From positions 1 through 64,000 of the forward strand of contig NZ_AUML01000002.1 in the NCBI RefSeq assembly GCF_000430665.1: a stretch of 64,000 bases of DNA. The letters are read 5' to 3'. The notes beneath the pieces were generated by a model. The model did not search any database. It was not told the DNA's origin and saw only the letters and a program-made list of their open reading frames with translations. This DNA comes from Aquimarina muelleri DSM 19832. Its GTDB lineage: Bacteria; Bacteroidota; Bacteroidia; Flavobacteriales; Flavobacteriaceae. Positions 9,138 through 60,577 of the stretch are shown here, one piece after another. The position numbers were made by a program, and so were the translations under genes. Within the stretch, counting starts at the first letter, position 1, and each line of letters opens with the position of its first letter.

Positions 9138-9395
9138 ATGTCAACAATTAGAAAAACGATCACATTTACAGAAAAACAAGATAAGTGGATCAAATCTCAA
9201 ATTAAGGCAGGAGAGTTCACAAATGATAGTGAATATCTTCGTGATTTAGTAAGACGTGACCAAGCTAAAAAAGCAAAATTTTCAGTACTTAAAGCTGCTA
9301 TAACTGAAGGTATGGATAGTGGTATTAGTGATAAATCTGTGTCAGATATTATGAAAGAAGTGGAAGAACGTATGCGAGCGGATGGGCGTTTATAA
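9138..9395 (+). CDS. parD: Type II antitoxin, ParD/CopG family
   Basis: An 85-aa antitoxin with the ribbon-helix-helix opening RKTITFTEKQDKWIKSQIKAG and the SEYLRDLVRRDQ helix typical of ParD. The C-terminal acidic tail (SDIMKEVEERMRADGRL) should wrap the toxin. It binds its own promoter and neutralises ParE. The stop codon overlaps the start of parE by 14 nt, the usual arrangement for this pair. Confidence 0.93.
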   Translation: MSTIRKTITFTEKQDKWIKSQIKAGEFTNDSEYLRDLVRRDQAKKAKFSVLKAAITEGMDSGISDKSVSDIMKEVEERMRADGRL

Positions 9396-9672
9396 AATAT
9401 CAAGAAAAGCAGAGATGGGTCTTTTCAAATTATATGAATACGGAATTGAAACATTTGGGTTAAAACAGGCACAAGCATATTTAATGGGAATGCACGATAT
9501 GTTTCAGATTCTATCAGACAATGTCAATCTTGGGCGTGATGCATCAGAGTTTATTTTATCATTAAAACGATTTTCTTATAAATCTCATTCTATTTTTTAT
9601 TTGGCTACAGATATTGATGTTTTGATTGTTCTTGTATTGAATCAAAGTATGGATTATGAAAAAAATTTATAG
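9382..9672 (+). CDS. parE: Type II toxin, ParE/RelE superfamily
   Basis: A 96-aa toxin whose sequence follows the ParE pattern closely: KISRKAEMGLFKLYEYGIETFG, QAQAYLMGMHDMFQILSDN, NLGRDASEF, KRFSYKSHSIFY and a final LNQSMDYEKNL. ParE proteins poison DNA gyrase; the sequence is intact, so the pair is probably active. It is the first of several cassettes in this island to be followed by a piece of the palindromic repeat (9727-9750). Confidence 0.93.
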   Translation: MGVYKISRKAEMGLFKLYEYGIETFGLKQAQAYLMGMHDMFQILSDNVNLGRDASEFILSLKRFSYKSHSIFYLATDIDVLIVLVLNQSMDYEKNL

Positions 9673-9726: not shown

Positions 9727-9750
9727 TTTTGTATTATAATGTACTTGCGT
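9727..9750. repeat. 3'-end fragment of the palindromic island element
   Basis: TTTGTATTATAATGTACTTGCGT matches the right end of the element at 11672-11694 (TTTGTACTATAATGTTCTGCGT) with two substitutions and a one-base insertion. The left half is absent here. Confidence 0.5.
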
Positions 9751-10545: not shown

Positions 10546-10989
10546 ATGAATAATAAAGATATACGTTGGCATCAACGTTTAAGTAACTATAATAAAGCAT
10601 TAGCACAATTTAATAAGGCTATCAATATAGCTAACGAAAGAGAATTAACTGAATTAGAACAACAAGGTTTAATTCAATCGTTCGAATTTACGCACGAATT
10701 AGCTTGGAATGTAATGAAAGATTATTTTTTTTACCAAGGTAATCCAGAAATACGAGGTAGTAGAGATGCTACAAGAGAAGCTTTTAAATTTAACTTAATA
10801 AGTACTGGAGAAATATGGATGGATATGATTATTAGTCGTAATAAAACCACTCATACTTATGATGAGGATACAGCTAATGAAATTGTTAGTAATATCTTAA
10901 ATGATTATGTTCAGTTATTTAATGATTTTAGTGTTAAAATGATTGAGTTAAGAGAAGGAGAACAACAAGATTTATTTGAAGAAGAATAA
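10546..10989 (+). CDS. hepT: HEPN-type toxin / nucleotidyltransferase substrate-binding protein (HepT-like)
   Basis: A 147-aa all-helical protein of the HI0074/HepT group. It contains FEFTHELAWNVMKDYF (about residues 46-61), REAFKFNLI, and the catalytic motif R98-NKTT-H103-T-Y105, a perfect RX4HXY. In HepT toxins the Arg/His pair cleaves RNA and the Tyr is AMPylated by the partner MntA to silence the toxin. The next gene, starting one base after its stop, encodes that partner. The C-terminus is acidic (QQDLFEEE). The functional call is strong; whether it follows the HepT scheme exactly is inferred from the motif. Confidence 0.88.
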   Translation: MNNKDIRWHQRLSNYNKALAQFNKAINIANERELTELEQQGLIQSFEFTHELAWNVMKDYFFYQGNPEIRGSRDATREAFKFNLISTGEIWMDMIISRNKTTHTYDEDTANEIVSNILNDYVQLFNDFSVKMIELREGEQQDLFEEE

Positions 10990-11301
10990 ATGAAATATGG
11001 TTTAAGCAAGATATCAATTGAAAAAATACTTGAAGTATTTAAAGCTAACTCGGAAATAGAAGAAGCAATTATCTTTGGATCCCGAGCTAAAGGTAATTAT
11101 CGTGAAGGATCAGATGTAGATATTACGTTAAAAGGGGATAAATTAACTTTTGATAAATTATTAAGAATTGAAAGCCAAATAGAGGATAAGTTCTTACCAT
11201 ATAAATTTGATCTATCAATATTTGAAAATATCGATAACAAAGAATTAATAGATCATATAAATAGAATTGGTAAGGTGTTTTATAATAGAAAAAGTCTATA
11301 A
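10990..11301 (+). CDS. mntA: Minimal nucleotidyltransferase antitoxin (MntA-like)
   Basis: A 103-aa protein of the MNT fold with the active-site signature G30-S31-RAKGNYREGS-D42-V-D44, that is GSX10DXD. Later KFDLSIFENI provides the third acidic position of the fold. MntA proteins transfer AMP to the Tyr of the HEPN partner and so neutralise it. The gene follows directly on hepT without spacer. Eleven bases after its stop begins the motif ATTATGTAAAATAGAAT, which also follows the last gene of the island. Confidence 0.88.
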   Translation: MKYGLSKISIEKILEVFKANSEIEEAIIFGSRAKGNYREGSDVDITLKGDKLTFDKLLRIESQIEDKFLPYKFDLSIFENIDNKELIDHINRIGKVFYNRKSL

Positions 11302-11523: not shown

Positions 11524-11701
11524 TTTACATAATATTACATTATAGCTACGAATGATCTTAACGTTTCTCAAATTGGCTTTTACATAATTGCTGACGATAT
11601 AAAACACCTGACGGTGTTATGATATCTGCAACTATGTAAAATGCAAGCATCCGCCAATTTGCTACAATAACATTTGTACTATAATGTTCTGCGTTATGTA
11701 A
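11524..11701. repeat. Palindromic structured island element 1
   Basis: A 178-bp imperfect palindrome. Outer arms 11524-11554 pair with 11671-11701 (TTACATAA ends, ACATTATAG inside). A middle stem AAATTGGC 11570-11577 pairs with GCCAATTT 11653-11660, then TTTTACATAATTGC 11578-11591 with GCAACTATGTAAAA 11628-11641, and a top hairpin AACACC-TGAC-GGTGTT 11603-11618. On the 3' arm a small side hairpin ATGC-AA-GCAT sits at 11641-11650. The same plan with other arm sequences is found at 16903-17084. Confidence 0.8.
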
Positions 11702-11802
11702 CTTTGCTTTGGTAAAAAGCTTTTACCAGAACTAATCTTCTTTTATTTTTTTCTTTCTAGAAGTTTCTTTAAAAAATGTAATGGAATATGCTTTTCCCAA
11801 AG

Positions 11803-11842
11803 CGAAGATAGGAGCGAAGTGGGAATGTGTATGGAATGGGAT
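11803..11842. repeat. 40-bp island repeat, copy 2
   Basis: CGAAGATAGGAG ... ATGTGTATGGAATGGGAT corresponds to the repeat at 9809-9848. It lies 73 nt before the 751-aa gene. Confidence 0.65.
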
Positions 11843-11915
11843 TATTCTTTCTAATCTTCAATTAATTACGGAATTCCATAAAAAGATACTTGTTAAAATT
11901 AACTAAATTTGAACT

Positions 11916-14171
11916 ATGGATTATTTTACACTTTGCGTCACTTTTATTTCTCTTTTATTAGGTATAGCCTATCCTATCCTGATACAAATTACATCAGAAG
12001 ACAAGTATTCTTCCGAAGCTATACTTGACCTTTTCGAAACCAGTAATAGAAAGAGATTTTTTACTATAAATTTAATAATATCTCTGGTTTTAGTCCTCTT
12101 AGTATATCTAAAATTCCCACCTCTTTTTTCATTCAACGTTGAGTGGATGGATTATTTATTTAATAATTCAGCCAAGATTTTGCTTTTAATTTTTTCTGTT
12201 CTTCTCATAATAAATTTCTTTAGACTTATTAATTTAATACAGACATTTTATAGAACCACTAGACTCATAGACTTTTTAGGCAAACAAAGGAAAAAGGTAA
12301 TTGAGAAAAATGATTTTACTTCTTTTGAGGGAATGTCTGATATTTTGTTTTGGTCTATCCAAAATCAAAATTTAAAAGTTGCTAGAAAAGTTAGCGGTTA
12401 TTTTTATGAACTATTTCAAGAATATAGAGAGAATTGGGATAAAGAACAGGATAAAAAAAATGAAGGTTTAATTTACCCTGATTTATTTTATGGAGTGGTT
12501 TATAATACGATAGAGCAAAGTGTAAAAGCGGACAAAAACAGTTTCAAATTTTTAGAAGCTAGAACAAGCGGTTTAACTTGGTTACTTGGGGAGTTTAGAT
12601 GTCCAAAGATTAGTGAAAGAACTTATGTCTGGATGTGGAGAAATATTGTATTAGCAATTGAAAATAATCGATTGGATTTAGTTTTTATGCATTGGAGTAG
12701 TGCGCATCAATACTTTCAAATGAATTTAGAGTATTTAACTCCTGAGTATGACAATTCTTCTAGAGAATTAATAGTAACAAATCAAAAATTAATAGATGAA
12801 AGAGCTAATGAAAGAGAACTTTTCTTAGAATTTCATTACGCATTAGGAGGATTACTTCTTTATAAAAACAAAATTAAATTCATTAAAAAATTGTTCAGCT
12901 ATACGACAAGTCAACCAGCTGATTATTATTTGTTACCGATACATATGAATCAAGTTTTTCATATGTTTTTTAAGTTTTTTGACCCAAATGAAAGACATTT
13001 TCCGTGGATAACTACCAAATATTATTTTCCAGATTTGGATGGAGTAGGGGCTCAAGGAGTTATAAAAAATTGGATATGTCAGTATATTGGAATACTGTTC
13101 ATAAGGCAATTTAACATTCACGCATATTACACATATCAAGTTCCAACTGAAAATCCAATTTTGCCAACTACTACATCAGAAAAAAGGCATTGGCTTGATA
13201 ATATAAGTTACTTTAAGGAAATAATTAAAACTAAAGTTAATGATAAAGAATTAATGAAAATTTTAAATTTCAAAATTGATTCTCAATATTTAGATAAAAT
13301 AAATAATATAGAACAAGAAATTAAGAATGACTTTGATTATGCAGAAAGAACAGCTGTTCCTTTGGATGAAAAAGTCGAATTGTATTTTAATACTGTAAAG
13401 CAACTTTTACCACCAACATTTGAATCATTAGAACTTATTAATAACAATAGCAAAGAGCCTGAAAAAACTGAAACAGAAGTTTTAAATATAGTCGGACAAA
13501 CTAATTTAACTGAAAAGGGTTCTTTTACGGACAATGGAATTGCCCATTTAAATTTTCATAGCTTTTTGCCTGAAACAACAAATAGAAGAATCAAAGAAAA
13601 CTTATCTTCAATTTTTTATGTAAAATCGAATGAACATTATTACGTAACACAAGAAGATGCCTTTAAATCATTAGACAATCTTAAAATTAAATCAGATAAA
13701 CATATTATTATTCTATTTGGGATAATGAATTTCTCTTATTACATCAATAACTTAAATATCCAAGGTCTATCTGAAAAAGATTATAAAGGAATTAAAATCA
13801 TACATTTTCCCGTTAGCGTTAGAAATGTTGGAACTTCATTATTTGTGCTTAAGAAAAAGCATTTGCCTTGGATAGGTTTCAATGAAATTCCAGATGAGCA
13901 TATTAACCTCTACGAATTAAAGCTATTAAATGATAAGTATAAATTATATAGTACAGTATCAGATTTAAATACTAATAATGAATTACGAGAAGCAATAATT
14001 AAAGAGGGAAAGGATAAAGATACAGATTTAGAAAAATATGTTTATCAAGGAATTAACTTTAGGACAACTCTGAGATTTAGTAAAAAACTCAAATTAGTTA
14101 GAATTCAAATCAAAGGATATTTTGATAATGGAAGAACTGTTAATAGTTTGAGTGATATCAAGAAGTTTTAG
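11916..14171 (+). CDS. 751-aa membrane protein of unknown function
   Basis: Three N-terminal membrane helices are visible (about residues 4-24, 47-69 and 86-108), followed by a long soluble part. After TM3 there is a basic linker (TRLIDFLGKQRKKVIEK), then Trp/Tyr/Phe-rich helical sequence, a low-complexity acidic stretch near 505-525 (NNSKEPEKTETEV), and a C-terminal beta-rich domain of about 200 residues. No catalytic motif was recognised. The low GC content, the repeat-bounded position and the neighbours (HEPN and GIY-YIG-like genes) mark it as accessory. A membrane-acting defence role is a guess. Confidence 0.8.
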   Translation: MDYFTLCVTFISLLLGIAYPILIQITSEDKYSSEAILDLFETSNRKRFFTINLIISLVLVLLVYLKFPPLFSFNVEWMDYLFNNSAKILLLIFSVLLIINFFRLINLIQTFYRTTRLIDFLGKQRKKVIEKNDFTSFEGMSDILFWSIQNQNLKVARKVSGYFYELFQEYRENWDKEQDKKNEGLIYPDLFYGVVYNTIEQSVKADKNSFKFLEARTSGLTWLLGEFRCPKISERTYVWMWRNIVLAIENNRLDLVFMHWSSAHQYFQMNLEYLTPEYDNSSRELIVTNQKLIDERANERELFLEFHYALGGLLLYKNKIKFIKKLFSYTTSQPADYYLLPIHMNQVFHMFFKFFDPNERHFPWITTKYYFPDLDGVGAQGVIKNWICQYIGILFIRQFNIHAYYTYQVPTENPILPTTTSEKRHWLDNISYFKEIIKTKVNDKELMKILNFKIDSQYLDKINNIEQEIKNDFDYAERTAVPLDEKVELYFNTVKQLLPPTFESLELINNNSKEPEKTETEVLNIVGQTNLTEKGSFTDNGIAHLNFHSFLPETTNRRIKENLSSIFYVKSNEHYYVTQEDAFKSLDNLKIKSDKHIIILFGIMNFSYYINNLNIQGLSEKDYKGIKIIHFPVSVRNVGTSLFVLKKKHLPWIGFNEIPDEHINLYELKLLNDKYKLYSTVSDLNTNNELREAIIKEGKDKDTDLEKYVYQGINFRTTLRFSKKLKLVRIQIKGYFDNGRTVNSLSDIKKF

Positions 14172-14275
14172 GAAAATGTTAGAGTAATGAAGGGGGTTCT
14201 TTAAAGCTAATCTCTATAATTTTGGAGTTGAATCAATGTCCAAACAAAAAATGATATATATACTTACAATACATA

Positions 14276-15505
14276 GTGAAAAAAGATAAAAAATATTACG
14301 GAGACATCTGGTTTGTAGGTAAAGAAGATAAAAAACAGTTTTGTGTTCTCTTTTTTAAAGATGATGATATATTTCTTGAAACAAACCTGTGCTCTGAAAA
14401 AAGAGTTTATAAAGAATTACAAATTGTAGGCACATTCACAGGTGTTGGTTATGTTACGTTTATTGATTGTAGAATCCAAAACTCTGCTTCTGGTATCTCA
14501 GAACTAAGAATATATAGACCTAAATATACATTTGTTAGTACAAGTCATTTTATTAATGCAATTGATTTACAAATCAAGGAATTCTCTGTTGTAAATAATG
14601 CTATTGTTAAATGGGTTAATTTTATGAATTGGTTCGATACTCAAACAAATAACTTATCAACGAAAGAGTTTAAAGATGAATTCAAGATTGAAAAAGAAGG
14701 ACTAATAATCGAAATTCAACATTACATAAATTATCATTCAAAAAATCGTTCAGAACTCCATATAACAAATAAAGGAGCCATAAAGTTTACTTTAGATAAA
14801 CCAGTCGCAATTCTCAAAGCTATTGAGATTTATAATCAGTTCCAAAAAGTATTACAGCTATTAAGAGGTGGCTCAGAAAAATTTAGTGAGTTTAGCTTTA
14901 AATGTCTTAGTTGCAATGAATGGAAAGAACTTTATTATAATGACAAAAATTTATCTAAAAAAACACCCACTTTTGTCCATACAAATTATGATGAGATAAC
15001 AGATGATTTGAATAAAGTCTTGGAAGTAGTTTATAATGATAATGACTTTAAATTTTGTCTTGATAGATTGATGGAAAATTTTATTACCAACCACTCAAGT
15101 CATAGCAAGAGATTTACAAATAGTATATCAGCATTTGAAGCATATTGTAAAATATATTCTGGTATTAATCCTCCTAACTTAAAGAAATACATAAAACATT
15201 ATAAATCTGCTTTTAAGTTAATAGGAAAACTAACTGATGAAGATTGGGAAACGTTTCCTAGTAAACTGATAAGGTCTAGGAATTATCACATTCATAGTGA
15301 TTTAAAAAATAAAAATATTTTTACAGATTTCGAGCTATTGTATATTAGTTTTTTAATTGATTATGTTATTGGGTATCTACTTTTAAAAAACATAGACGCT
15401 TCTAATTTATTACTTGATAAATTTATAATGCACGGTAATTCTGTATATGTAGATATGAAACGTACTAATCAAATATTGGGAACAAATCCATTAGAGAATG
15501 AATAG
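14276..15505 (+). CDS. ApeA-like HEPN-domain protein
   Basis: A 409-aa protein starting at a GTG; no ATG lies upstream in frame before the stop at 14252. Residues 8-90 (GDIWFVGKEDKKQFCVLFF, GTFTGVGYVTFIDC) match the layout of the ApeA N-terminal domain. Residues about 255-390 form a helical HEPN domain with FTNSISAFEAYCKIY and the motif R335-NYHI-H340 (RX4H) inside IRSRNYHIHSDL. HEPN proteins of this group are RNases; ApeA itself is an anti-phage protein. Intact motifs suggest activity. The stop overlaps the start of a 36-codon ORF (ATGAATAG). Confidence 0.75.
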   Translation: MKKDKKYYGDIWFVGKEDKKQFCVLFFKDDDIFLETNLCSEKRVYKELQIVGTFTGVGYVTFIDCRIQNSASGISELRIYRPKYTFVSTSHFINAIDLQIKEFSVVNNAIVKWVNFMNWFDTQTNNLSTKEFKDEFKIEKEGLIIEIQHYINYHSKNRSELHITNKGAIKFTLDKPVAILKAIEIYNQFQKVLQLLRGGSEKFSEFSFKCLSCNEWKELYYNDKNLSKKTPTFVHTNYDEITDDLNKVLEVVYNDNDFKFCLDRLMENFITNHSSHSKRFTNSISAFEAYCKIYSGINPPNLKKYIKHYKSAFKLIGKLTDEDWETFPSKLIRSRNYHIHSDLKNKNIFTDFELLYISFLIDYVIGYLLLKNIDASNLLLDKFIMHGNSVYVDMKRTNQILGTNPLENE

Positions 15506-15608
15506 TGAATATTTAAAATACGAGCTAAAAGAATTCAATTTAGAATTATTTTCAAAACCAAATGGGAGGGAAGGAGTTGATTTTTTAATAGGAGATTACC
15601 AATTATGA
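15498..15608 (+). CDS. Short ORF of 36 aa, translationally coupled on both sides
   Basis: The ATG at 15498 overlaps the stop of the HEPN gene and the TGA at 15606-15608 overlaps the ATG of the next gene (TTATGA). The product has about 36 residues, is charged (EYLKYELKEF at the start, IGDYQL at the end) and resembles nothing known. The double overlap is the main evidence that it is translated. It may be a small antitoxin-like partner, or only a coupling peptide. Confidence 0.4.
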   Translation: MNSEYLKYELKEFNLELFSKPNGREGVDFLIGDYQL

Positions 15609-16204
15609 ATATAAAAGATGAAATCTTAGTCATACACAAGGTTTTTGAGTCCATAAGTAATAAAGTTGTGTCTGAAACTGATGATAGGGTAAGTAAAACA
15701 TTTAAAATAAGCGACTTACCCAACCACAAAGACTTTACTATAGATGTAAATGCACACGCAAATTCGAGAAATATATTTACCGAGTTAGATAAAATAAAAT
15801 GTGATTGTTTATATTGGTTTGATTTAAAAACAGTTGAACAAGCGAAGGAATTAAATAACCTTTTAAATAAATATAGAGAGACTAACATAAAAGGGACTGA
15901 AAGTTATAGAAGTGTGCCTGCAACAAACAAAAATGATAATAGTAATGTTTTATATGTAGGTGTTCGTCGTGGTGGCTATACTAAAAAATGGAATTTAACA
16001 AATATCACTGGAAGAATTAATCAACATCTTGGTTATTATCACAATGGAAACACACAAGGTTTGCAATTAATACACTTTGCAAAAGATTGTGATTTTGATA
16101 TAACAATTAACGTTATTAAAATTGAAAATCCCAATAGTATTTATCTAAATATAATTGAGAAAATAGTTGCACAAAAACTAAAACCTCTTTGTGGTAGACA
16201 TTAA
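15605..16204 (+). CDS. GIY-YIG-like nuclease protein
   Basis: A 199-aa protein. The C-terminal half carries NVLYVGVRRGG (residues 114-124) as the YIG-type strand, RINQHLGYYHNGNTQGLQL with a candidate catalytic Arg at 137, Glu185 in IIEKIVAQ and a final LKPLCGRH, the order seen in GIY-YIG nucleases. CLYWFDLK at 68-75 could be the first, GIY-like strand separated by an insertion. It is coupled to the preceding short ORF. Nuclease function is plausible, not certain; it fits a defence context beside the HEPN protein. Its stop is followed 2 nt later by the 17-bp island motif. Confidence 0.6.
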   Translation: MNIKDEILVIHKVFESISNKVVSETDDRVSKTFKISDLPNHKDFTIDVNAHANSRNIFTELDKIKCDCLYWFDLKTVEQAKELNNLLNKYRETNIKGTESYRSVPATNKNDNSNVLYVGVRRGGYTKKWNLTNITGRINQHLGYYHNGNTQGLQLIHFAKDCDFDITINVIKIENPNSIYLNIIEKIVAQKLKPLCGRH

Positions 16205-16206
16205 AC

Positions 16207-16223
16207 ATTATGTAAAATAGAAT
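16207..16223. repeat. 17-bp island motif ATTATGTAAAATAGAAT, copy 2
   Basis: Identical to 11312-11328 and placed 2 nt after the stop of the GIY-YIG-like gene. Confidence 0.75.
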
Positions 16224-16648
16224 CTAAAATCTCAAAAATGGCCTCAGAAAACTTTGGGCTAAACAATAGGCAAAGGAGCGTCCATATTTTAGAGGTCTAG
16301 TACTAAGGTTTAATCAAAGTTTTCCATATTCATTCTAGTTATAAACAATCTTATAAGTTAGAATGTTTTCTAAAATATAGCGACTGCGCCGTACATTGTT
16401 TCCAAAGTTTTGTGCAGCCTTGATTTTTTTGTTTAGCTCACGCGTTAATATTTTATTGGAGTTCGTGAATCTCCTAAAGTCGATTTCTTTTTTTATCAAG
16501 ACAAAAAGATATGCAAACCCTTAGAATGTTTAATCTGTGTTCTGCAGATAGCATGTGTATAGAAATTATCTCGTCAGAGTAATTTTATACTTATGCGGCA
16601 ACCTTCACGAGAATAGCGTAAAAACTTTTATCACGTATATTTTATCAA

Positions 16649-16720
16649 ATACGCGATTTATAAATTACCTAAAAGTGTTTGCTTTTTTTGGTGTGGCCAA
16701 GCGATGGCAAATTGTGTGTA
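16649..16720. repeat. Direct repeat of the island, copy 2
   Basis: Second copy of 11424-11497, from TACGCGATTT to AATTGTGTGTA, in the same orientation. Confidence 0.65.
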
Positions 16721-16779
16721 GAGAAAAATGCATTGAGCATTTTTATTTACAAAACAATAAAGCGGTCGGGCGCGGCAAT

Positions 16780-16820
16780 TTTACATAACGGCAAATTATA
16801 GCTACAAATGGTAAACGTGA
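16780..16820. repeat. Left-arm fragment of the palindromic element
   Basis: TTTTACATAACGGCAAATTATAGCTAC and the following AAATGGTAAACG resemble the left outer arm of elements 1 and 2, without a matching right arm nearby. Confidence 0.45.
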
Positions 16821-16902
16821 GGTTTAATCATAAACGCTACAAAATAATTTTAATGACCCCAGTAGCTACGATTATTATGAAATAGAATTATCCTGGGATA
16901 TT

Positions 16903-17084
16903 TTACATAGTATTACATTATAGCTACTAATAATAAACTGGCGTGAGTAAAACGGCTGTTACATAAATGCTAACGATATAGACCTAAAGGCGCTATATCT
17001 GCATCTATGTAAAATAGAACCGAAAAAGTTCTATTCGCCGTTTTACTCATATATTATATTTGTACTATAATTTATATTATGTAA
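16903..17084. repeat. Palindromic structured island element 2
   Basis: A 182-bp palindrome with the plan of element 1. Outer arms begin TTACATAG and end TATGTAA. The middle stem GAGTAAAACGGC 16945-16956 pairs perfectly with 17037-17048; GTTACATAAATGC 16958-16970 pairs with 17001-17013; GATATAG 16975-16981 pairs with 16993-16999. The side hairpin AATAGAAC/GTTCTATT (17013-17020, 17028-17035) sits on the 3' arm. Middle stem and side hairpin differ in sequence from element 1 yet pair in both. Confidence 0.8.
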
Positions 17085-17186
17085 AATAGAATGTTTTAAA
17101 ACAGCTACTCTATATTAGAATTGCTGTTTTAAAATTTATTTATGATTTTGGTGTTTTAAGCTTTTCTAAAACGTAACATATTTATC

Positions 17187-18737
17187 TTACCAAGATATCG
17201 GCACATAGTCTTTTAAAAATTTTCCTGCCCAATGTTTTCCTGTATTGATACCGTCAAATAATGGATCCATAACTCGTGCTGCACCATCTACAATATCTAA
17301 TGGCGGTTGAAAATCATGTAGTTCTTCTTTTCTTTTTGCCAAAATTGCAGGATCTTCGTCTGTAACCCAACCTGTATCTACAGCATTCATAAAGATTCCT
17401 TCTTTTGCTAAACTACCCGCCGCTGTATGCGTTAACATATTTAAAGCTGCTTTTGCCATATTGGTATGCGGATGACGATCTTCCTTAAAAAAACTATGAA
17501 ACTTTCCTTCCATAGCAGAAACATTAATTATATGTTTTTGCCCTGTATAGTCTTTTTTCATAATTTCAGATAAACGATTGCATAATACAAATGGCGCTAC
17601 CGAGTTTACCAATTGTACTTCTATCATTTCTGTAGTTTCAATTTCTCCAAGTTTTAAACGCCAACTATTTGTGGTTCTTAAATCTACTTGCTGTAAATCT
17701 GCATCCAACTCCCCTTCTGGAAATACCTCCTTAGCAACCAGTGAATTATCAAAACTATATGGTATTTGTGATAGCTTTGCAGATGCTCGTAAACCTATTC
17801 CTGGTTCTGGTCCATGCCAAGTTACTGGCATATTTTGATTAGATGATGCTCCTGTAGTCAATGCTTGCAATTCTTGTAAACACTCCAGATGATCTACTAA
17901 TACGTCTTTAGCATATTTTGGTAATTCTTCTATTGGCAATTGCTCATTTTCCATTAAATGGGAATAAAACCCAGCAGGACGCCTAACCGTTTGTGCAGCG
18001 TTATTTATTAATATATCTAAACGCTTATACCGTTGCTCTATAAAATTACAAAAAATCTCTACACTAGGTATATGTCGTAAATCTAACCCATGAATTTTTA
18101 ACCGATGTCCCCACGAAGTAAAATCATCTTCTCTAGAAAAACGTAATGCTGCATCTACAGGAAAACGTGTAGTTGCTACTACCGTTGCACCTCCTCGTAA
18201 TAGCATTAAAGCAATATGGTACCCTATTTTTAAACGGGATCCGGTAATTATAGCTACTTGCCCTTTAACATCGGCTGTTTGAAAACGTTTCGCATAATTA
18301 AAATCACCACATTCGCCACACATAGTATCATAAAAATGATGTAGTTTGGTAAATTCGGTTTTGCATACATAACAATTTCTTGGTGAAGATAATTCTGGTT
18401 GCTCTGTATTCCTGATTTCAGATACTGGAAGCAATTTTGGAGCTACAAATACGGTAGCTTCTCGAGCACTTCGTATTCCTGTTTTTTTACGGGCATCTTT
18501 GTTTCTTGCAGCAATCTTACGCTTTGCCGCTTTTTCAGAGTCCTTTTTTCTTTGTTTAAACTCCTCCTTATTAGGTCTGGATAACATCCCTGCAGCTTTC
18601 ATTAACGCGACTCTTCGCTCTTCAGAAATATCAAAAATAGTATTAGTATTAGATATTAATTTTTCTAATGTTATAATGCACTGATCTATTTCTTCGATAG
18701 TAACTCCTTGTTTACTATCTATTTCATTCTGTTCCAT
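17187..18737 (-). CDS. SDR-family protein with N-terminal coiled region and zinc ribbon
   Basis: A 516-aa protein in three parts. Residues 1-90 are helical and very basic ([22 protein letters not shown]). Residues 122-143 hold CYVC and CGEC, a four-Cys zinc ribbon. From 158 on there is an SDR Rossmann fold with TGSRLKIG (165-172), NNAAQT (245-250) and Ser407 in INVSAMEG. At the YxxxK position the sequence reads T425-NMA-K429, so the catalytic Tyr is absent while Lys remains. Classical dehydrogenase chemistry is therefore doubtful; nucleotide binding or a non-redox role is possible. It seems a coherent, intact family and stands alone. Confidence 0.82.
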
Positions 18738-50171: not shown

Positions 50172-50192
50172 AAATCACTCTTTTAAAAAACA

Positions 50193-50235
50193 TTATTTAT
50201 GGAAAATTAGTTTTAAACTAATTTTCCATAAATAA
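50193..50235. terminator. Long bidirectional hairpin between phzF-like and helicase genes
   Basis: A 21-nt arm (TTATTTATGGAAAATTAG...) and its complement meet with one base between them, giving one of the longest palindromes in the window. It includes the stop and last codons of the helicase gene on the minus strand. Confidence 0.8.
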
Positions 50236-51738
50236 TTGATTGATTTTGGTTCTTAGTTTTCGTTTATAATCCTCTTCTAACCAATCTCTATAGTTTTTGG
50301 TGCTCTTGCTAATACAATAAGAATATCTACGTACTCGATATTCTATATCTTGATCTAAAAGCCTACTTAAAATTCGAGCGTCAAAAACATCTTCACTATT
50401 CTGAACACACATCTTTGCATGCTGTTCAATAGAGTTTTCTAATACCGTCAAACTTCTTAGTCCAAATTTTTTGGTTTTTGAATACTCTTCTTCTATATCA
50501 AATTGAATATCTTCAGAGTTTTCAAATTCTCTTCGTAATTCATCAGGGAGTACATATTTAAAATTTCTTTCAATTTCTTCATCTCCTACTAAATTATCAT
50601 AATAAAAATCTGGTGATCTAAAAATAGATTGCCAATCCATTTCTGCATTCCATAAACCAAATCTTGCAGTATTATTTCCTAGGTCTAATATATTAAACTC
50701 TGGTTTTGTTGGTAAAATTCGAGATCCCCTACCTATCATTTGAAAATATAAAGTAAGGGATTTTGTAGCTCTATTAAGAATAACTGTTTCTACAGTAGGC
50801 TCATCAAATCCCGTAGTTAAAATACTAACCGAACTAAGTATTGCATCCTCAGTATTCTTAAACCAAGCCAAAATATCTTCTCTTTCTTGTTTACTATTTG
50901 TATTATCTAAATGTCTAATAGGGTATCCTGCTTTCCTAAAGGTCTCATACACATAAATAGAAGTATTGATACCATTATTAAAAATCAATGTTTTTTTACC
51001 TTTAGATCTTTCTTCATACGCATGCAAAAGTTTATCCTGCATTTGCATATTAGTATATAACTCTTCTGAAGATTTTACAGTATAATCTCCATTCATTCCA
51101 ATCTTTAAAGATCCCAAACCTACATCAAATGTATAAATTACAGGTTTGGCTAAAAAACCACTTTTAATTAATGAATTTATTGTGTCTCCTACAATCAATT
51201 CATTATAATTATCCTTCATAGGAAGCTTCATATTAGAACTAAGCGGTGTAGCTGTAACTCCCAAAATAAAGCAATTTTTAAAAAACCTAAAAAGCTTTCT
51301 AAACGAATTATAATGAGCCTCATCAATGATTACCATTCCTACATTATGCAATTCTACATCATCCTCATTTAGCCTATTATTTAGAGTCTCTACCATAGCG
51401 ACAAAACACATATATTCGTTTTGATCATCCAGTTCTTTTACAGAACTATTTATGATTTTGTTTTTAACTCTAAATTCTTTTAACATTTTAGAAGTCTGAG
51501 CACAAAGTTCTATACGGTGTGTTAGAACTACCACCTTTTTTTTGGTAGACTCTATGTATCGCCTAACGATCTCAGAAAATATAACCGTTTTTCCACCTCC
51601 TGTAGGAAGTTGATATAACAAATTATATTTTTTCGGAAACTCCTCTAATCGGCTAAATATCTTATCGATATCTCGTTGCTGATAATCGTATAGTACTTTT
51701 TGTTCTTTTTTATCAATATCTGTGGGTTGTAATCCCAT
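50218..51738 (-). CDS. Superfamily 2 DEAD/DEAH helicase
   Basis: A 506-aa helicase of the type III-restriction/UvrB-like group. Walker A is QLPTGGGKTVIFSEI, Walker B IIDEAHYNSF, motif III GVTATPLS, and motif VI QMIGRGSRI with STLTTGFDEPTV before it (S-I-L-T-T-G-F-D). The start is taken at 51738 (MGLQPTDIDKKEQ) where an AAAAGA lies before the ATG; an ATG at 51774 adds twelve hydrophobic residues. A C-terminal extension of about 110 residues is peculiar to the subgroup. The role in repair or RNA processing is unknown. Confidence 0.85.
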   Translation of the reverse strand: MGLQPTDIDKKEQKVLYDYQQRDIDKIFSRLEEFPKKYNLLYQLPTGGGKTVIFSEIVRRYIESTKKKVVVLTHRIELCAQTSKMLKEFRVKNKIINSSVKELDDQNEYMCFVAMVETLNNRLNEDDVELHNVGMVIIDEAHYNSFRKLFRFFKNCFILGVTATPLSSNMKLPMKDNYNELIVGDTINSLIKSGFLAKPVIYTFDVGLGSLKIGMNGDYTVKSSEELYTNMQMQDKLLHAYEERSKGKKTLIFNNGINTSIYVYETFRKAGYPIRHLDNTNSKQEREDILAWFKNTEDAILSSVSILTTGFDEPTVETVILNRATKSLTLYFQMIGRGSRILPTKPEFNILDLGNNTARFGLWNAEMDWQSIFRSPDFYYDNLVGDEEIERNFKYVLPDELRREFENSEDIQFDIEEEYSKTKKFGLRSLTVLENSIEQHAKMCVQNSEDVFDARILSRLLDQDIEYRVRRYSYCISKSTKNYRDWLEEDYKRKLRTKINQLFMEN

Positions 51739-55831: not shown

Positions 55832-55905
55832 TCTTTAAAATTAAAAGATTAACTCTAAGTGTTTTTCCTTATAAACACTTAATCGTTATGACTGTTTTAT
55901 AAATT

Positions 55906-55947
55906 AAAAAGTGCGAGGTTAATTTTAAAATTAACCTCGCACTTTTT
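55906..55947. terminator. Bidirectional terminator between lpdA and aroQ
   Basis: A perfect 42-nt palindrome with 21-nt arms beginning AAAAAGTGCGAGG and ending CCTCGCACTTTTT. A/T tails on both sides make it act on both convergent transcripts. Confidence 0.92.
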
Positions 55948-56026
55948 AGTATATATTCTAATTATCTAATTCTTTCCTTTGGTAAGTTTTGTTCCTTTTT
56001 ATTACTAAAACAAACGTATATACTTG

Positions 56027-59677: not shown

Positions 59678-60577
59678 GTGAAATGGAGTCATGCAATAAA
59701 AGATTTTGAGCATTATTTACGCATTGAAAGAGGGCTTTCAGAAAACTCTATCATTAGTTATATTTTGGATATAGAACGATTATTAAAATTTCTTAACGAT
59801 CAAAATATTACCACTACTCCCCTATCTATTGAAAAGGATATCGTGCAACAATTCATTTTTGAAACTGCAAAATTAGTTAACCCTAGATCACAATCCAGAA
59901 TTATTTCTGGTTTAAAAAGTTTTTTCAATTATCTTGTTTTTGAAAATTATAGAGAAACTAATCCTATGGAACTTATTGAGTCTCCTAAAATAGGAAGAAA
60001 ATTACCAGACACTTTATCTGTAGAAGAAATTGATCTTATTATCTCTCATATTGATTTAAGTACACCTGAAGGTGAACGCAATAGGGCAATCATCGAAACT
60101 TTATATGGATGCGGCTTACGAGTAAGTGAATTAATTACCTTAAAAATATCTAGTTTGTTTTTTAACGAAGGATATATTAGTGTAACAGGAAAAGGTGATA
60201 AACAAAGATTTGTTCCTATTGGAGATGTTACTAAAAAGTACATTTCTATTTATAGAACAGAAATCAGAAATCATATGGATGTTAAAAAGGGGCATGAAGA
60301 TACATTATTTTTAAATCGGAGAGGCAAAGGACTTACTCGGGCTATGATTTTTACAATTATAAAACGATTGGTAGAAAAATCTGAAATACAAAAAAAAATT
60401 AGCCCACACACTTTTAGACACTCTTTTGCCACTCACCTACTAGAAAACGGAGCAGATTTAAGAGCCATACAGTTAATGTTAGGGCACGAAAGTATTACTA
60501 CTACAGAAATATATATGCATCTAGATAGGAGTCATTTAAGAGAAGTTATGAACAGTTTTCATCCCAGAAAAGGATAA
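59678..60577 (+). CDS. xerD: Site-specific tyrosine recombinase XerD
   Basis: A 299-aa recombinase that resolves chromosome dimers at dif with XerC. Catalytic residues are all present: Arg148 in GCGLRVSELI, Lys172, His244 and Arg247 in HTFRHSFATHLL, His270 in MLGHESITTTEIYMH and the nucleophile Tyr279. It begins with GTG (KWSHAIKDFEHYLRIERG); no ATG lies in frame upstream. Single SAM-like N-terminal domain. The gene looks like the housekeeping copy, not an integron integrase. Confidence 0.95.
   Translation: MKWSHAIKDFEHYLRIERGLSENSIISYILDIERLLKFLNDQNITTTPLSIEKDIVQQFIFETAKLVNPRSQSRIISGLKSFFNYLVFENYRETNPMELIESPKIGRKLPDTLSVEEIDLIISHIDLSTPEGERNRAIIETLYGCGLRVSELITLKISSLFFNEGYISVTGKGDKQRFVPIGDVTKKYISIYRTEIRNHMDVKKGHEDTLFLNRRGKGLTRAMIFTIIKRLVEKSEIQKKISPHTFRHSFATHLLENGADLRAIQLMLGHESITTTEIYMHLDRSHLREVMNSFHPRKG

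Follow-up and report, generated by a model that had tools for sequence, protein, structure and literature searches.

The closest described parallel to the attachment sites considered here is that of CTXphi, for which PMC4246890 describes an attP1 site with a 12-bp centre and an inverted attP2 site with a 5-7-bp centre, lying 90 bp apart and folding into attP(+), with entry into dif catalysed by XerC. The dif site itself is given as 28 bp (PMC4246890, PMC3091885) with a 6-bp centre (PMC4246890). Here we describe a comparable arrangement in the first 64,000 nucleotides of contig NZ_AUML01000002.1 of Aquimarina muelleri DSM 19832, a member of the Flavobacteriaceae; this whole stretch is referred to as the window. 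Two folded elements in it, at 11524-11701 (+) and 16902-17084 (+), are very probably the attachment-site hairpins of gene modules that were integrated at dif, the chromosome dimer resolution site, by way of the host Xer recombinases. On our best reading, the modules are Xer-exploiting integrative elements (IMEX) with a CTXphi-like attachment site, apparently devoid of phage genes; as an attachment site, this type is already known.

Like CTXphi attP(+), the sites of these modules combine two inverted dif-like sites, one with an extended centre (12 bp in CTXphi and 9-10 in the modules) and the other with a centre of 5-7 (PMC4246890, PMC5357621). As described in the same sources, the likeness extends to pairing in a folded single strand, the lack of an own integrase, insertion at dif, and the formation of tandem chains (PMC4246890, PMC5357621). 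Unlike CTXphi, the modules are without recognised phage genes, have hairpins of 63-357 nt in all, show two inverted sites in several genera, and carry a defence-enriched cargo across a family. The Microviridae-related proviruses of Bacteroidetes (PMC3091885) and the PhiCjT23-like prophages of Flavobacterium (PMC9719478) come from the same phylum and share the dif-like borders and the lack of a recognised integrase. An additional dif-like sequence is present in BMV4-6, three of the seven microvirus proviruses (PMC3091885). However, these single-stranded DNA (ssDNA) elements are described with replication and capsid genes, whereas the modules carry accessory and defence genes. Legionella LME-1, the gonococcal genetic island, and EludIMEX-1 are likewise mobile elements inserted at dif (PMC9765430, PMC5357621), but the available text describes them as single elements (the last two of 57 and 29 kb) rather than as arrays of small modules with folded sites. 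The resistance modules of Acinetobacter are small gene modules bordered by Xer sites but are borne on plasmids, whereas here we find chromosomal dif and folded sites (PMC7399989, PMC5790767). In the literature, subscription papers and preprints aside, we found no description of family-wide, defence-enriched, dif-chained modules without recognised phage genes in Bacteroidota.

In E. coli, dif consists of a XerC arm, six bases, and a XerD arm, and the right border of the array in the window has the same layout. The sites on which the following argument turns are these:

17062-17087, + strand: putative chromosomal dif, right array border, with arms GTACTATAA and TTATGTAAAAT around TTTATA; XerC-type arm 17062-17070 (GTACTATAA), centre 17071-17076 (TTTATA), XerD-type arm 17077-17087 (TTATGTAAAAT)
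16902-16927, - strand: inverted dif-like site of attP2-type (B-type); XerD arm, 7-nt centre TATTACA, XerC arm plus an extra base
16780-16805, - strand: second inverted dif-like site (C-type) with centre CGGCAAA; also present, in other genera, upstream of B-type sites
11676-11702, + strand: internal junction, a direct site of attP1-type at the left end of the last module; XerC arm 11676-11684, 9-bp centre TGTTCTGCG 11685-11693, XerD arm 11694-11702

Since the class of sites with a 6-bp centre, GTACTATAA-TTTATA-TTATGTAAAAT, matches the dif layout, the outer arms of the elements are read as XerC- and XerD-type half-sites. The exact 26-mer at 17062-17087 is present as a single copy in 35 of the 52 genomes of the genus, and a control search with the reversed pattern gave 0. 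In the complete genome G006, the sign of the GC skew (20 samples) switches within the interval 300-600 kb, which contains the site (478,824), and the reverse switch lies half a genome away. These observations on sequence point to 17062-17087 as the putative chromosomal dif. Searching GTDB genomes with the element's 3' end recovered at least 117 stretches, from which our list of genera is a lower bound; by record title nearly all are from Flavobacteriaceae, in genera that we take to be mostly marine. (One stretch, with an odd centre, stands under a record titled Alphaproteobacteria.) The centres in these loci fall into discrete classes, with 73 sites at 6 bp, 44 at 9-10 bp, 5 at 7 bp, and 3 others. 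Among the matches listed, the 6-bp centres are mostly TTTATA, TTAATA, or TTTACA; the left-type centres, defined by their ending in GCG, are 9 bp in 35 of 44 cases and 10 bp in the remaining 9; and four of the five 7-bp centres come from C-type inverted sites seen from the opposite strand.

In each element, the 5' half consists of another Xer site, which is inverted and comprises a XerD arm, 5-7 nt, and a XerC arm with extra bases. We examined 106 such elements, counting identical sequences once and skipping 26 loci judged to be duplicates; a 7-bp direct centre occurs in eight of them, several of which are the opposite reading of a C-type site. The inverted centre measures 5-7 nt in 105 of the 106, the total length varies from 63 to 357 nt, and in 96 the predicted fold joins the arms of both pairs. 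In the window, the first element belongs to the preceding module and begins with an inverted site at 11524-11549, whereas the second is the right-end element of the last module, consisting of the B-type inverted site, variable stems, and the direct site, with the arms of the two sites paired in the predicted fold. The C-type inverted site lies upstream of this B-type site, and the segment that it opens (16780-16893) is no more stable than shuffles when folded alone (z -0.38). At their 3' ends, the two elements differ in a meaningful way, the first having a 9-bp and the second a 6-bp centre.

This difference in centres follows a rule in the Aquimarina arrays examined. The last direct site has the 6-bp centre of dif in 11 of 11 Aquimarina arrays, while all 20 internal direct sites, distributed over nine of these arrays, have centres of 9-10 bp; the other two (G012 and G006) have no internal direct site in the array stretch examined. 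Successive direct sites are 1.6-11.4 kb apart in 19 of 20 intervals, and the remaining interval, of 32 kb, may hide worn sites. The contrast between internal and last centres indicates that the segment 11685-17070 represents a single module inserted at dif, next to what remains of earlier ones:

11685-17070, + strand: last integrated module (5386 bp, measured between the edges of the two XerC arms)
11703-11845, + strand: conserved left-end leader before the cargo, with hairpins, ending near GGAATGGGAT
16205-16901, + strand: conserved right-end noncoding region, homologous over several hundred bases to the terminal spacers of other Aquimarina arrays
9731-9749, + strand: degenerate internal junction, GTATTATAA-TGTACTTGCG, with the XerD arm lost (recognised by direct reading and comparison, not by a motif match)

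By eye, leader-like sequence also follows internal sites in other arrays and genera. Beyond Aquimarina, we surveyed 26 loci; with one left out and two lying in one genome, these represent 24 genomes. Thirteen of them have a left-type site and a site with a 6-bp centre on one contig, and in all 13 the two are on the same strand, with the left-type site upstream and the 6-bp site last. The 18 direct-site intervals in these genera span 1.4-30 kb, and 14 are shorter than 13 kb. An array in Lacinutrix (G106) has five successive direct sites, each preceded by two inverted sites, and a 6-bp centre in the last.

The first-pass annotation had placed both elements as we find them, except that the second begins at 16902 rather than 16903. 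It had also noted that the outer and inner arms are common to both while the middle stem and side hairpin differ in sequence yet pair, an observation that we could reproduce. Folded as ssDNA, the first element reaches -30.2 kcal/mol against a shuffle mean of -13.5 (z -6.29) and the second -32.2 kcal/mol against -13.0 (z -7.29), with 0 of 200 shuffles as good in either case; the minus strand folds well too (z -7.66). For covariation, we aligned 35 long copies, hand-chosen from Aquimarina and other genera to the exclusion of short and broken ones. Over 45 pairs, 96.2% of the cells are paired, a share that leans towards structure in that RNAalifold missed the middle stem, which was placed by column pairing; 13 of the 45 pairs have changed on both sides. 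Double-changed cells number 107 versus 36.6 in shuffles, counts of this kind being inflated by shared ancestry, and the covariation score is 0.184 versus a shuffle mean of 0.075 (0 of 500 reach 0.184), dropping to 0.023-0.033 when the partner is slid. Further pair types do not rise above shuffles in these copies (23 vs 21.7; 156 of 500 shuffles reach this number). The informative part is the pattern from helix to helix: none of the 13 double-changed pairs lies in the two outer helices, which are formed by the Xer arms, and all 13 lie in the middle and inner stems. The earlier proposal that the fold is what is conserved is thus borne out by covariation for the middle and inner stems. This is the distribution expected if the stems that separate the arms need do no more than pair, and if the nearly fixed arms are protein-binding sequence. 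In the copy from G027, the inner hairpin appears by eye to be inverted relative to its relatives (L046:8169-8348), a change that keeps the fold.

Strong covariation, together with the location of the elements between operons, might also suggest a structured noncoding RNA or a regulatory element of the defence operons. This we consider exceedingly unlikely: the window has no Rfam match at the gathering score, the arms equal dif half-sites, both strands fold well, and the position of the elements follows the direct sites rather than one type of gene. For the attachment-site hairpins that we favour, ssDNA is a likelier folded form than RNA.

A 341-base query (E <= 0.001) matched 59 of 91 genomes, the window genome included. 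Of these, 48 (out of 52) belong to the same genus; the other 11, out of 39 genomes from elsewhere in the order, match over only about 25-46 bases. Further copies with compensatory changes, which the first-pass annotation had named as support, particularly if beside accessory genes, are indeed many in the relatives and adjoin such genes. The window genome itself has only these two copies at the level of BLAST, so that the absence of other copies in the genome, held beforehand to speak against a conserved fold, is nearly true of it; but in the single-contig relatives G003, G006, G020, and G026, for each of which the 7 best candidates were scored, the copies found likewise lie no more than about 30 kb from one place, as expected for an array anchored at dif. 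In several Aquimarina genomes, copies spread across 13-50 kb of one contig. We also considered and rejected a transposon or miniature inverted-repeat transposable element: the copies in the window genome are at one place, and the third match to a loose pattern, on contig C17, has no inverted partner.

These features could be brought together in a simple mechanism modelled on CTXphi. At the right end of a module, an inverted dif-like site with a 5-7-nt centre lies a short way upstream of the direct XerC-type arm. In ssDNA, this end would fold on itself, with the two XerD arms paired to each other and the two XerC arms likewise, giving a forked hairpin that presents one dif-like stem. Host XerC, together with XerD, would then join this stem to chromosomal dif through one strand exchange at the XerC arm. 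The product would have on its left a junction whose 9-10-bp centre should make it a poor substrate for Xer, and on its right a regenerated 6-bp dif. Because dif is regenerated, further modules could insert and chain in one orientation, which is the architecture seen in the arrays; the order of accretion would then place the newest module nearest dif. By analogy with CTXphi, we infer that integration is catalysed by XerC on ssDNA and that the module passes through a single-stranded circular intermediate.

Of the recombinases that such a mechanism would call upon, XerD is encoded in the window itself:

59678-60577, + strand: xerD (TIGR02225, 331.0 bits, cut-off 329.6)

A XerC-like gene on another contig has XerC as its best match (301.5 bits, below the cut-off of 335.15). 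In accord with the use of host enzymes, the modules examined have no tyrosine or serine recombinase of their own: the 14 array regions searched contain neither PF00589 nor PF00239, transposases, HUH proteins, and other recombinase types not having been searched by family. Outside the array regions, PF00589 is present in 14 of these 14 genomes and PF00239 in 8, the nearest resolvase being that of G006, about 24 kb upstream of dif. A module-borne recombinase was sought by comparing the window XerD, with phmmer, to 1098 locus open reading frames (ORFs); the one match (L132) ends just outside a left end, and this candidate was dropped.

Integron attC arrays consist of cassettes with folded single-strand sites in a growing array, and the module arrays work in the same way. 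The first-pass annotation had drawn this parallel, and the elements could in principle be integron-type attC sites of a cassette array whose integrase was lost or lies elsewhere. Such an origin would agree with the uniform orientation of the cassettes, the folding of the sites and the extra bases in one of their arms, the variety of the cargo, and the presence of a single main locus. Nevertheless, no IntI over the family cut-off was found in any of the 52 genomes of the genus, the better tyrosine-recombinase matches skipping approximately profile positions 182-239. Moreover, the arms and centres match dif/Xer sites, the last site being a dif-like one with a 6-bp centre, and the arm GTTATGT does not conform to the attC R-box motif, GTTRRRY. 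The module arrays thus differ from integrons in lacking IntI, in the core sequence, and in having dif as the integration point. An attC identity is therefore very improbable and was not upheld; the folded attP(+) of CTXphi is the closer parallel.

The modules turn over at a fixed site, as is seen in Maribacter. Twenty of the 36 genomes in the genus of Maribacter spongiicola (G091) match its left-flank query; six besides G091 do so over about 400 bases at 90-97%, and a flanking 199-aa gene is common to five Maribacter genomes (87-95%). In G091, G145, G118, and G134, the flank continues through a XerC-type arm and on into the conserved left end, beyond which the sequences diverge; the same junction is rearranged in G146 and more diverged in G148. 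The single visible module of G091, coding for proteins of 304, 253, 372, 256, and 155 aa, recurs in G146 as the second module (66-89% identity), and its first gene also opens a module in G118 (87%), while the modules of G145, G134, and G148 hold other genes. The right flank is common to G091 and G134 (76-88%). The same flanks with differing modules thus indicate turnover at a fixed site.

Such turnover might instead reflect ordinary homologous recombination: after transformation or conjugation, modules would be exchanged by way of their long conserved ends, and only the first insertion, long ago, would have been the work of Xer. Ends conserved over hundreds of bases would offer ample homology, and whole modules do recur in other orders. 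We regard this as improbable nonetheless, as it leaves unexplained the covariation in the hairpins, the rule of a 6-bp centre in the last site and 9-10-bp centres in internal ones, and the modules at secondary sites with a XerC-like arm.

The secondary sites are themselves among several observations that weigh against repeated Xer-mediated insertion at dif. In G092 and G094, a further module (G092:C1:1045869-1051901; G094:C37, L355:2164-7855) stands at a site with a XerC arm and an altered centre (TTATTC and TTGTTC in G094 and G092, respectively), the XerD arm being altered as well in G094. In Wocania G096, two left-type sites lie away from dif, one of them, by eye, near tRNA-like sequences; a third array there extends past the end of the scaffold. 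Modules at secondary sites imply that dif is the main but not the sole site. Further, the exact 26-mer is absent from 17 of the 52 genomes of the genus, and the GC skew that places dif in G006 is too noisy in G020 and only weakly consistent in G003. In a survey of 31 of the 35 genomes with the 26-mer, no intact inverted site was found within 330 bp in 8 of the 31 dif loci, where it is missing or worn, and a short element, L348, folds no better than shuffles (z -0.23). No replication or transfer gene was identified in the modules. Finally, the exact left-end, leader, and dif patterns each occur in 0 viral contigs.

The cargo of the last module and the neighbouring gene pairs of the array are as follows:

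11916-14171, + strand: cargo ORF, 751 aa, no family found
14276-15505, + strand: cargo ORF, ApeA-like HEPN defence protein (PF18862 and PF18739 over cut-off; PADLOC PDC-S58, Cas13-ApeA)
15605-16204, + strand: cargo ORF, 199 aa, no family over cut-off
10546-11301, + strand: cargo pair of the preceding module (PF08780, PF18765, PF01909)
9138-9672, + strand: ParDE pair, probably cargo of an older module (PF03693, PF05016)

The ORF at 15605-16204 has homologues in a locus of Aquimarina sp. RZ0 and in one of Algibacter; a sequence search of the PDB with the two family-less cargo ORFs of the window returned nothing. The pair at 10546-11301 is presumably of the HepT/MntA type, a name that we take from its Pfam families, and a pair homologous to ParDE is present in 6 of 10 other arrays as well as in Bizionia and Lacinutrix loci. 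Other arrays carry an RT_UG9-type defence reverse transcriptase, a HerA-DUF4297 fusion, a STAND NTPase, an operon with HNH, HATPase, and C5-methylase proteins, and an Eco57I/MmeI-type methylase protein. To judge from sequence families, this cargo is enriched in antiviral defence functions. In genera other than Aquimarina, whose 24 loci were excluded, 100 randomly drawn ORFs out of 171 in modules matched 241 PADLOC families, as against 37 for 100 of 217 flanking ORFs; the measure is rough, in that it counts families rather than proteins, is inflated by related models, and may take in native genes on the module side (from right-end-only loci) and ORFs of a neighbouring module on the flanking side. 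The matches of the module ORFs include E1-E2 and NucC models, which we take to represent cyclic oligonucleotide-based antiphage signalling systems (CBASS), and type II methylases. Pfam adds SAVED and McrBC, but ordinary enzymes and transporters too. Beside the right end of modules there is also a recurrent 136-aa ORF, for which Pfam, PADLOC, and NCBIfam give no match (L048:15448-15858, with homologues in the G014, G001, and G051 arrays).

As for possible carriers, among the 25 listed of the 111 Pfam families matched by the sampled module ORFs, the only phage gene is one T4 gp19-like tail tube match. A loose pattern found 45 stretches in viral contigs, most of them judged from context to be chance. 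In two viral contigs, L192 and L208, CTTAGCTTGGG follows a compact inverted/direct Xer hairpin with this layout, much as at the left end of a module; L192 also has terminase, portal, and primase genes. In phage records (128 at E up to 5, where among the matches listed most of the others look like chance), three Microviridae from Ciona have a dif-like stretch of 31-36 nt, and small Cellulophaga phages have one of 26-27 nt (best 96.2% at E 0.004); the latter account for 13 records, and five of the six listed are 6.4-6.6 kb long. Given that ssDNA phages with dif borders are known and that these phages have a similar stretch, a helper phage is a possible carrier, and conjugation and transformation are equally open. 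An inovirus helper was considered and discarded: Zot occurs in 10 of the 52 genomes of the genus (9 over cut-off, best 30.2 bits), not in the window genome, and we saw no link to the arrays. No plasmid carrier was found; a shorter query, at E up to 1, gave short matches in 13 plasmid records (best E 0.01), two of them from Adhaeribacter.

Taking a wider view, we propose, tentatively and with more doubt than conviction, that dif in Flavobacteriaceae may be the platform of a Xer-driven analogue of the integron. A standing pool of defence cassettes free of recombinase and virus genes would move between cells as ssDNA circles, whether carried as satellites in the particles of ssDNA phages of the same hosts or transferred by conjugation or transformation; each cassette would adopt an attP(+) fold like that of CTXphi and be added serially at dif by the host dimer machinery. 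Such a system would explain where a common marine bacterial family keeps part of its defence genes, and how these are exchanged without an integrase. It would also join the folding of single-strand sites, as in attC and CTXphi, with defence islands, two fields that rarely meet. The 9-10-bp centres of internal sites, with a 6-bp dif at the end, offer a signature for reading such arrays in genomes, which could be used to mine them for undescribed defence systems.

Some smaller features of these loci deserve mention. A small palindromic element of about 60 nt, ending like TGCGAGATGATGTGGCTGG, is inserted in several spacers, even inside Xer arms (L048:8880-8950; L052:6735-6795; the G015 array at about 3.0 kb of L054), and an CCCTGAGCTTGTCGAAGGG palindrome is inserted in spacers likewise. 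At 17187-18737, between dif and a conserved major facilitator superfamily (MFS) gene, the window codes for a 516-aa short-chain dehydrogenase-type protein; among 31 dif loci, such a gene stands beside dif in the window genome only, several relatives having a DUF4251 protein there. Lastly, near-perfect long palindromes adjoin genes at 55898-55955 and 50192-50236 of the window and are perhaps terminators.

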